Below, piece after piece: positions 18,185 through 31,019 of a DNA stretch of 64,000 bases. Under the pieces are notes generated by a model. That model searched no databases. It was not told where the DNA came from and saw only the letters and a program-made list of their open reading frames with translations. How positions within the stretch are numbered: position 1 is the stretch's first letter; each line of letters begins with the position of its first letter. This stretch comes from Rhizophagus irregularis (lineage: Eukaryota; Glomeromycota; Glomeromycetes; Glomerales; Glomeraceae): NCBI RefSeq assembly GCF_026210795.1, contig NC_089440.1, positions 3,410,001-3,474,000 on the forward strand. The letters are read 5' to 3'. Position numbers and translations under genes: made by a program.

Positions 18185-18192
18185 GATGGTAA
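18185..18192. repeat. Left copy of 8-bp target-site duplication (GATGGTAA)
   Basis: GATGGTAA directly precedes the inverted-repeat element; the identical octamer follows its other end at 20547-20554. Confidence 0.8.
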
Positions 18193-18654
18193 TAAAGTTG
18201 CCTGCTAAAACTCTACAGGCTATTGTTGAAATGTCGAAACTAAAACCTGTCAAAATGCTGAAATGCCAAAATAGTTTCGACATGTTGAAATTGTCAAAAC
18301 CTAAAAATATTACATTTCATGTAATAACTCGACATCCAATGATCGTAGAAAAATGCACTATAGCTCATTAAAATTATCTCATAACGATGAGTCGAATGGG
18401 GTTAGATCGTCTTTCTACAATCACTGGATGCCAAGATATTAAGTAAAACGTCAAAAATTGGCATTTTGTATTTTGCGATACTGTGCCATTTGATGTTTCA
18501 CATAATAACTCAGCATCCAATGATCGTAGAAAGATGCACCATAGCTTATTGGAATCATCTCATAACAACGAGTCAAATGGTGGTTAAATCATCTTTCTAC
18601 TTTGCTATTGTTTATGGCCAGGACCACCCACTCCTCTTATAGCAGTACGAGGTC

Positions 18655-19051
18655 GATATCCTATCATCTTCTAGGGCAACCATTATACCAGTACTTAATT
18701 CCATGCGGGTAACAGCATCGCTATTAAAGACATCCTTCATCAGGCCACTTTTAAGGCTAATCTGAAGCTAGGAATACACCGCCTACTCATCCTATACCCA
18801 TTGCATGATACTGGTATAAATCATTTTTCTACTTTCATAAAGTTTACGCTAAGCTTTCCCTCTACTTCTTACAAGATCATCGGACTAGTATCCTATCATC
18901 CCCAAGGGGTAACCATACCACTGAGTACTTATTGTTCCTCAAGCAGACAGCACCAAATATGAGGACATCCCCATCGGGCCACATTTAAGGCTGATCTGAA
19001 GCTAGAAATATACCGCCTACTCGTCCTTAAACCCATTGCATGATACTGGTA
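18655..19051. repeat. Two diverged direct copies (~165 bp) inside the element core
   Basis: Copy 1 (about 18655-18816) and copy 2 (about 18885-19051) share in order TCCTATCATC, GGTAACC-like, CAGTACTTA/GAGTACTTA, GACATCC, GGCCAC(A/T)TTTAAGGCT, ATCTGAAGCTAG, ACCGCCTACTC, CCCATTGCATGATACTGGTA. The spacing is ~232 bp, so it is a tandem-type duplication within the GC-richer core. Confidence 0.7.
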
Positions 19052-19719
19052 CTCAATTTATTTTACGACCTTTAGAAAGCACCTACTTTCATGGAGGACT
19101 TTCGACAGGTAGCATCAACTATCTAGTACCCTTCCATACCATCATTTAGGTACGATATCACTCAAAGTGCCACCATACATGGACGATTACCCAGCACGAT
19201 AGTACGGTTGTTTGCAACCTGGTATACTTATGTAGTGACCACTCAGATAGGAAGTAGCAGGCATCTGTCCAGGATCACCCCTTAGGTGGTATCAACCACC
19301 AGGATCACCAACCAGGGATCCAAAGAAAGAGGTAAATCAACCCCATAACCATGCTACCTGTCCCGCGCATAAACACCTGATTGGTCTAAGACCTAACAGA
19401 AGGTCAAACTACCACTAAGACATTGCACCCTCAGCTTTACTATCTAGGATGACCATCTAGCCATTACTGACCCCAAGTGGTATCGTAGAGTGACCATCCG
19501 GACAGGAAGTCCCCCCAAGGCATAGTAGTGATTTCAAGGACATGACTGCACACATGCCAATGGCCTCATAGGGAACGTTAGAAGGACATCATAACCCTTA
19601 GTTGAAATATGCGGCCTAACCATACACACTAATTCACCATGATGCAGTCCAACTACGCTAATCCCTGTACCTTCATGCTATTGGTTGTAGCGTCCGCAGT
19701 AAAAATTCGTTTAATTTCC

Positions 19720-19808
19720 GTGATCAGCAGAATTGAACCTGCAACCTCACCATACTCAGGCTTAATGAGGGTCTCAGTCACTTACCACTGAGAAAGGGTG
19801 ATCAACCT
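19720..19808 (-). other. tRNA-like (SINE-head-like) segment with pol III A and B box matches
   Basis: On the minus strand, TTTCTCAGTGG matches an A-box at most positions and GGTTCAATTCT, 45 nt further on, matches a B-box except for its last base. The spacing is that of a class II (Leu/Ser-like) tRNA. The outer ends both contain TGATCA, which could pair. However, the T-arm does not fold into a proper 5-bp stem, so this is not a functional tRNA gene; a tRNA-derived SINE head or chance match are both possible. Confidence 0.3.
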
Positions 19809-20546
19809 CCATAAATCATCTTTCTACGATTACTGGATGTTGAGATATTGAGCAAAATGTCAAAAATTGGCATTTTGTATTTTGCAATATTGCGCTGTTT
19901 GACGTTTCGCCTATTATCTCGGCATCCAGTGATCACAAAAAGATGATTTAACCACCATTCAACTCGTCGTTATGAGACGATTCCAACGAGTTATGGTGCA
20001 TCTTTCTACGATCATTGGATGCCGAGTTATTAAGTAAAACGTTAAACGGTGCAGTATTACAAAATACAAAATGCCAATTTTTGACGTTTTGCTTAATATC
20101 TCGGCATCTAGTAATCATAAAAAGATGATTTAACCACCATTCGACTCGTCGTTATGAGACGATCCCAATGAGCTATGGTGCATCTTTCTACGATCATTGG
20201 ATGCCGAGTTATTACATAAAATGTCAAATGGTGCAATATCGCAAAATACAAAATGCTAATTTTTGACGTTTCGCTCAATATCTTGGCATCCAGTGATCGT
20301 AGAAAGACGATCTAATCACCATTTGACTCGTCGTTATGAGACGATTCCAACGAGCTATGGTGCATCTTTCTACGATTATTGGATGCCGAGTTATTACGTG
20401 AAATGTAATATTTTTAGGTTTTGACAATTTCAATATGTTGAAACTATTCTGGCATTTTGACAAATCAGAGAGCCAATGTCAAAATGTCAAAATAGTTTCG
20501 ACAATTTTGATATGCTGAAACTCCCTAATTTTGGCAGGCAACTTTA

Positions 20547-20554
20547 GATGGTAA
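20547..20554. repeat. Right copy of 8-bp target-site duplication (GATGGTAA)
   Basis: GATGGTAA follows the right terminal repeat directly. When one copy and the element are skipped, the coding-like frame of the host retroelement remnant continues (KGFDG then NDKLTLLAKIKELL), which supports true insertion. Confidence 0.8.
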
Positions 20555-29959: not shown

Positions 29960-30965
29960 GAAATTCGGTTAACCAGTCGACAATTGACAATCGTGATTAT
30001 TAGGTTTTCTCAAAGAAGTGAAGGTCTAAAAAATATATATATAATGTGATGTAAGTAATAATCAATTGAATTTGGTGTTCTAATTTGAAATTCGGACAAT
30101 CGACAATCGTGATTATAAGATTTTCTCAAAAAAGTAAAGGTCTAAAAAAAATAGATGCAATCGGATTTGGTGGTCTAATTCTAGGAAAATCGAAATTTGA
30201 AATTCGGACAATCGACAACCGTGATTATAAGGTTTCCTCAAAAAAGCAAAGGTCTAGACAAAATAGATGCAATTGGATTTGGTGTTCTCAATTCTAGGAA
30301 AATCGATTTGAAATTCGATTATTCGACAATCGTGATTATAAGGTTTCCTCAAAAAAGCAAAGGTCTAAAAAGAATATATATAATGTGATGGTGTTCTCAA
30401 TTCTAGGAAAATCGATTCGAAATTCGGTTATTCGACAATCGTGATTATAAGGTTTCCTCAAAAAGCAAAGGTCTAAAAAAAATATATAATGAGATGCAAT
30501 TGGATTTGGTGTTCTAATTCTAGGAAAATTGAAAATTGAAATTCGGTTATCGACAATCGTGATTATAAGGTTTCCTCAAAAAGCAAAGGTCTAAAAAAAA
30601 TATATAATGAGATGCAATTGGATTTGGTGGTCTGATTCTAGGAAAATCGAAATTTGAAATTCGGTTGTCGACAATCGTGATTATAAGGTTTCCTCAAAAA
30701 GCAAAGGTCTAAAAAAAATATATAATGTGATGCAATTGGATTTGGTGGTCTAATTCTAGGAAAATCGAAATTTGAAATTCGGTTATCGACAATCGTGATT
30801 ATAAGGTTTCCTCAAAAAAGCAAAGGTCTAAAAAGAATATATATAATGTGATGGTGGTCTAATTCTAGGAAAATCGAAATTTGAAATTCGGTTATCGATT
30901 ATAAGGTTTCCTCAAGAAAGCAAAGGTCTAAAAAAATATATATAATGTGAATCAATTGGATTTGG
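29960..30965. repeat. Minisatellite: about nine copies of a ~107-128-bp unit
   Basis: Each unit starts GAAATTCGG and contains TCGACAATCGTGATTATAAGG, TTTCCTCAAAAAAGCAAAGG, TCTAAAAA...ATATATAATG, ATGCAATTGGATTTGGTGGT and CTAATTCTAGGAAAATCGA in this order. Unit starts: 29960, 30087, 30199, 30311, 30418, 30536, 30655, 30773, 30881. The outer copies (first and last) are the most diverged; inner ones are near-identical, which suggests recent unequal exchange. Open frames at 30085-30388 are repeat artefacts. Confidence 0.9.
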
Positions 30966-31019
30966 TTTTTTTTGTAAGATTCTACTTCTATAATTGATTT
31001 TTAGTAAAATTCGTATACA

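Follow-up and report, generated by a model that had tools for sequence, protein, structure and literature searches.

The foldback-like element in the 64-kb stretch of Rhizophagus irregularis DNA analysed here (the window) very likely consists of two nested mobile elements, a foldback DNA transposon and, within it, a site-specific retroposon. We consider it reasonably probable, in addition, that the inner element is a new, site-specific and tRNA-headed SINE-like retroposon dedicated to the palindromic monomer of the foldback. By recreating its target with each insertion, such a retroposon would turn a foldback arm into tandem arrays or satellites and spare the host genes. The features of the two elements are collected in Table 1.

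Table 1. Features of the nested elements, in window coordinates
Feature	Position	Strand	Evidence
Left 8-bp target-site duplication (TSD), GATGGTAA	18185..18192	.	
5' terminal inverted repeat, TAAAGTTGCCTGC...	18193..18210	+	Inverted-repeat pair with 3' end; genome-wide end matches
Left arm: end segment and a portion of the array of 182-bp palindromes, ending with the retroposon target site	18193..18600	+	Also present at other copies
Target-site copy TAAATCATCTTTCTAC, 3' side of truncated retroposon copy	18585..18600	-	
Retroposon copy truncated at the 5' end, corresponding to positions 764-980 of the L048 unit	18601..18816	-	Alignment to L048
Target-site copy TAAATCATTTTTCTAC, between truncated and full copy	18817..18832	-	
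Full-length retroposon unit, ~980 bp	18833..19811	-	87% to L048 over unit 3-922
tRNA-like head: A-box-like and B-box-like segments, acceptor-like stem	19719..19811	-	Head comparison; scored on the L048 copy
Target-site copy TAAATCATCTTTCTAC, 5' side of full retroposon copy	19812..19827	-	
Right arm: 182-bp palindromic monomers and end segment	19828..20546	+	TRF, inverted repeats, folding
3' terminal inverted repeat	20529..20546	-	Inverted-repeat pair with 5' end
Right 8-bp TSD, GATGGTAA	20547..20554	.	

Structure of the outer element

An earlier note on this DNA had claimed a complete foldback-like element with an exact 8-bp TSD, long inverted arms in which palindromic subunits are repeated in tandem, a core richer in G+C than its surroundings, and no transposase. 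All of this held. Both GATGGTAA copies and the inverted ends were located, and the element between them extends over 2354 bp (18193-20546). Its terminal inverted repeats are 94% complementary over 18 nt. In the right arm, TRF detected a tandem repeat with a 182-bp period (2.8 copies at 19898-20403), and the three longest arm pairs, of 139-198 nt, were 87-90% complementary. Folded as single-stranded DNA, one 182-bp monomer reached -39.9 kcal/mol, compared with a mean of -17.5 for shuffled sequences (z = -7.66). The core (18601-19811) has a G+C content of 0.444, as against 0.353 for the arms and 0.259 for the remaining window, where single 1-kb bins ranged from 0.129 to 0.403. All stop-to-stop frames in the outer element were shorter than 90 amino acids. 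The element therefore shows what defines a foldback: long inverted arms built up from internal repeats in tandem, a TSD and the lack of a transposase.

Rfam microRNA matches in the arms were dropped, as they scored far below the gathering score and their hairpins are made by the palindromes. Elsewhere, at L057:746-832, a long hairpin of CAGGT/ACCTG repeats also gave Rfam matches to microRNA precursors below the gathering score. The window further contains a ThiF-family gene, an MCM gene and, at 30082-30966, a tandem array with a 118/236-bp period and 86-88% matches.

Copies of the outer element and their target duplications

The genome that was searched comprises 146.7 Mb in 32 contigs. The 13-base end of the element matched it at 547 places with at most one mismatch; the reversed pattern, used as a control, matched at 74. 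To these matches we add a test of the TSD in 14 element pairs for which both ends lay in the retrieved sequence, with the nested group described below counted once. The 8-bp duplication was exact in seven pairs and had one mismatch in four more, so that 11 of 14 carried it with at most one mismatch; it was absent in three (L019, L067 and L068). Among 182 mismatched pairings of left and right flanks, there was no exact 8-bp match and one near match. The nested-group members L060, which has lost one TSD copy, and L061/L062 were excluded. Two larger elements fell outside the 14-pair test: L044:2082-7276 (5195 bp) has the exact TSD GTCCTATT, and the TSD of L043:1938-7041 (5104 bp) has one mismatch. 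The flanks of six elements were compared with one another and did not match; for the remaining elements, independence is read from the differing duplications only. These data agree with the expectation in the earlier note of many copies with different flanks; neither a lack of other copies nor a lack of 8-bp duplications, which it had named as grounds for giving up the element, was found.

Using the 5' 138 bases of the element, we retrieved 30 loci (40 matches scored). One was the window, four were located at other places and had a partner end, four had no partner in the retrieved stretch, and 21 formed the nested group. These 21 copies have the common TSD ATTATAAC, in some with one base changed, and common host flanks; their left flanks are 96.6-99.4% identical to that of L020. 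We accordingly rejected them as independent insertions and counted them once: they represent one insertion within a host repeat that has been amplified, and the number of monomers varies among them. Their lengths were 533 bp (two copies), 715 bp (four), 896-897 bp (four), 1078-1080 bp (four), 1233 bp (two), 1260 bp (four) and 1441 bp (one). Steps of 182 bp fit 19 of the 21, the exceptions being the two copies of 1233 bp. Such a ladder in near-identical copies is a natural experiment on how foldback arms grow and shrink. The amplified host repeat itself (L020 and 20 further loci) extends ~950 bp to the left and ~505 bp to the right of the foldback. In most of the copies that were seen, its ends are constant, ACAAGTTAACATT... 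and ...CTTTTAGTGTTTTAA; no clear target duplication was found there.

The joined flanks of the window element were used as a query for the empty site, and the best 40 of 57 candidates were scored. Twenty-six ran uninterrupted across the junction, 12 were one-sided and two were the window's own halves. The paralogous empty site reads GATGGCAA at L101; the paralog on C3 reads TTTGATGGCAATGACAAAC, that is, a single copy of the target with the insert absent. Since so many matches cross the empty junction, the flank of the window element is a dispersed repeat. The proposal that the host is a retroelement ORF gained no support, as neither of two left-flank pieces matched Pfam at a score above the cut-off.

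Mobilization of the outer element

The outer element is best explained as a non-autonomous foldback DNA transposon, with ends of 13-18 bp, an 8-bp TSD and arms of 182-bp palindromic monomers, that would be moved in trans by a hAT-type transposase. The length of the TSD and the end motif make such an enzyme the most likely mover. The terminal pattern of hAT elements is YARNG. We take the end of the outer element, TAAAG, to fit this pattern, which is weakly specific. Positions 2/7 of nine exact TSDs, a small sample, were T/A 11 times out of 18 (p = 0.03, one-sided).

Shorter relatives of the element also occur, in which the end is identical or a variant but the interior is another. A 432-bp relative at L100 has the exact 8-bp TSD AGTCAAAC (read by eye). 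A 244-bp relative at L049 lies inside a retroposon unit and has the variant end TAAGGTTGCTTG and the exact 8-bp TSD GTGAGGTC; uninterrupted retroposon units represent its empty site. Several further types of end were seen in 200-base samples. In another retroposon unit, at L044:4823-5100 (C14), lies a short element of another kind, with the inverted-repeat ends TAGGGATGGCAAC and the exact 8-bp TSD GCTACAAC, which looks hAT-like.

P elements have 8-bp TSDs, which counts for a transposase of the Mutator or P type in place of a hAT enzyme. In the same direction, the majority of foldbacks are apparently members of Mutator, and Galileo a member of P, according to the available part of PMC4079207. 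We nevertheless regard a Mutator- or P-type mover as rather unlikely: an exact 9-bp duplication was present in none of the 14 pairs and an exact 8-bp duplication in seven, the TAAAG end fits the hAT pattern, and hAT domains are abundant in the genome (835 PF05699 candidates, of which 150 were listed).

To pair the hAT-type mover with the element, we compared, by eye, these 150 of the 835 candidates with 100 listed exact ends, which makes for a weak search. Among the matches listed, a hAT match lay within 5 kb of an end and in the right orientation in two cases, in one of which the end belongs to a 432-bp element that has its own second end. In the other, at L099 (C20:34880-40400), a foldback 5' end and a fragment of a retroposon head are located just upstream of a hAT gene whose domains are BED, RNase-H and dimerisation; the 5.5 kb examined contained no second end. 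Two further hAT domain searches, again evaluated by eye, gave no clear new pairing with the ends. The larger copy with a transposase, for which the earlier note had proposed to look, was thus not found in this limited search of the matches listed.

The core is a separate element, probably a retroposon

Judged by its sequence, the G+C-rich core is an independent mobile element, represented in the window by a full and a 5'-truncated copy of a non-coding retroposon of ~980 bp. Each copy is bounded by the 16-bp TAAATCATCTTTCTAC or a variant of it that differs by one base. The core matches arrays at other locations in the genome, and in 17 of 20 stretches it occurs without the ends of the outer element within the reach of the stretch. 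We therefore rejected a single transposon with a "foreign core". Of the composite architecture that the earlier note had described, the arms stand; the core does not stand as a part of the same element and appears to be a second mobile element at a fixed site of the monomer.

Full units, read on the minus strand, start with (A)GGGTT-GRTCACCC and finish with ...ACTWGCAAA, or close variants of these. The copy at L048, which served as the reference, has a G+C content of 48% and no stop-to-stop frame longer than 89 amino acids. Neither a poly-A nor a microsatellite tail was seen in the units. In being non-coding, flanked by TSDs, subject to 5' truncation and fixed at its 3' end, the retroposon resembles a SINE, its ~980 bp being long by the standards of this class.

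A fixed target site in the foldback monomer

The genome-wide counts place the retroposon at one fixed target position, as is characteristic of site-specific insertion of the non-LTR type. The retroposon tail had 293 matches with at most one mismatch, and the tail followed by the target motif had 272 with at most two; as the mismatch limits differ, the second number is not strictly nested in the first. The reversed control gave no match in either case. Junctions from the monomer into the target motif numbered 493 (at most two mismatches; control, one); unoccupied sites contribute to this number, as do occupied ones with their left sides. The tail ran into the same type of monomer at 31 places (at most three mismatches; control, none). 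In the retrieved loci the target motif stood in 169 distinct contexts: 98 were empty monomers, 18 lay between units, 12 led from monomer to unit, 17 from unit to monomer, and 24 were of other kinds, many of them truncated units or misses of the search pattern.

Mode of insertion

To see how the units are bounded, we analysed 73 unit alignments in 22 stretches. Among the full-length units, 34 had the target on both sides, and in four it was found on one side. A further seven copies with the target on both sides were truncated at the 5' end (in one of these, L055, the 5' target is degenerate), and no copy so bounded was truncated at the 3' end. The remaining 28 alignments were pieces: the unit was interrupted by internal changes or by a subsequent insertion, or the stretch came to its end. 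The truncation points adjoining the target were 764, 911, 909, 754, 535, 444 and 315. As read, the 3' junction is fixed, the 5' junction contains a few variable bases and the length of the duplication varies, the target duplications around the retroposon being about 15-18 bp. In two loci a private variant of the target recurs on either side of an insertion (AAAAAGATAATTTAAC in L043, GACGATTAA in L046); in L049 the motif differs by one base between the two sides.

An excess of bounded copies truncated at the 5' end, seven to none, is what target-primed reverse transcription predicts. By sequence criteria, a fixed 3' junction, a variable 5' junction and matched target variants together are the signature of this process with a fixed nick. 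The ~980-bp retroposon with its tRNA-like head would thus insert at one exact position of the monomer by target-primed reverse transcription, served in trans by what we infer to be a sequence-specific LINE enzyme. Each insertion duplicates ~15-18 bp of target, as the repeats on its two sides show, and a later copy could then settle next to an earlier one with the same orientation. Because the target is duplicated at each insertion, tandem arrays result; in the window, the full copy lies beside the 5'-truncated one. Some tandem units may be duplicates produced by unequal crossing-over rather than separate insertions.

The fixed site, the common orientation, the near-identical short direct repeats and the head-to-tail arrays would also be expected of a cassette that a site-specific (tyrosine) recombinase integrates via a circular form with a ~15-bp site, repeated integration yielding the arrays. 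Yet such a cassette does not account for seven site-bounded copies truncated at the 5' end and none of the opposite kind, nor for a 5' junction and duplication length that vary while the 3' junction is fixed; moreover, no recombinase is encoded, the longest stop-to-stop frame of the L048 copy being 89 amino acids. We consider this origin of the core very improbable. Hardly more probable is a single ancient insertion of the core that then spread only with the host element and by unequal crossing-over. Many loci do have common flanks (two or three flank classes), and part of the copy number is therefore passive. Against a single insertion stand the several units of L043 that occupy different monomers of one element, as well as the seven different truncation points next to the target and those private variants of it that agree across an insertion. 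Differing truncation points and matched private variants require separate insertion events.

Relation to known elements

To our knowledge, only one comparable nested pair is known, from a frog. In Tx1D/Tx1L of Xenopus laevis, a non-LTR retroelement occupies one site inside a DNA transposon that contains tandem repeats. We regard Tx1D/Tx1L as the closest nested pair and Tetris of Drosophila virilis as the closest foldback. Tx1L codes for its own proteins. The unit described here, by contrast, lacks coding capacity, is short, carries a tRNA-like head and is arranged in head-to-tail arrays. The non-autonomous hAT elements and MITEs have short inverted ends, an 8-bp TSD and no coding capacity. The outer element shares these features; unlike hAT MITEs, it has long composite palindromic arms, and no linked hAT transposase was found.

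Tetris, in the available part of its description, has long inverted arms with internal tandem repeats of ~220 bp whose number varies between copies, and TSDs of 8-10 bp (PMC4079207). Like the present element, it is non-autonomous, and there its autonomous partner was not found. The differences here are the 182-bp palindromic monomer, the TSD of 8 bp, the end that suggests hAT, and an inner part that is a separate retroposon landing on the monomer. Tx1 is listed as target-specific in a review (PMC3747384, available in part), and Utopia is a target-specific non-LTR retrotransposon of U2 snRNA genes (PMC4640811, likewise). The retroposon resembles Utopia-type elements in its fixed target within a multicopy sequence, and in these, too, tandem insertion at the target occurs occasionally; it differs from them in that its target is another transposon instead of an RNA gene and in being non-autonomous.

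A limited literature search gave no retroposon-in-foldback pair and no SINEs in MITEs; among the matches listed, "site-specific SINEs" appeared only in the usage of RNA editing, and there were no foldbacks of Glomeromycotina. In R. irregularis, two-thirds of the transposable elements were unclassified; a curated library, which includes hAT and SINE families, raised the classified share (PMC11075540, available in part). Either element may already be in that library under some name.

If our reading is true, a non-coding retroposon can be strictly site-specific and find a safe haven in another transposon. With target monomers numbering in the hundreds, the spread of a parasite's parasite could be tested, and the nested pair would link two types of repeat in R. 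irregularis.

The retroposon head

The head of the retroposon contains A-box-like and B-box-like segments. We compared 48 heads chosen by the B-box-like pattern (51 rows, three of them out-of-register repeats). The stem was TGGTCA/TGACCA in 29, TGATCA with GATCA in 13, and a broken pair in six. The two stem types may reflect a single switch between two lineages. Scored against the Rfam tRNA clan, the L048 head reached 15.2 bits (E = 0.87), which is below threshold, and ARAGORN found no tRNA in the head. At this score, and with no ARAGORN match, an origin of the head from a tRNA is no more than possible. In the L048 unit, a second exact B-box-like segment, GGTTCGATTCC, is present at position 469 besides the one at position 71, which hints at a dimeric tRNA-like origin.
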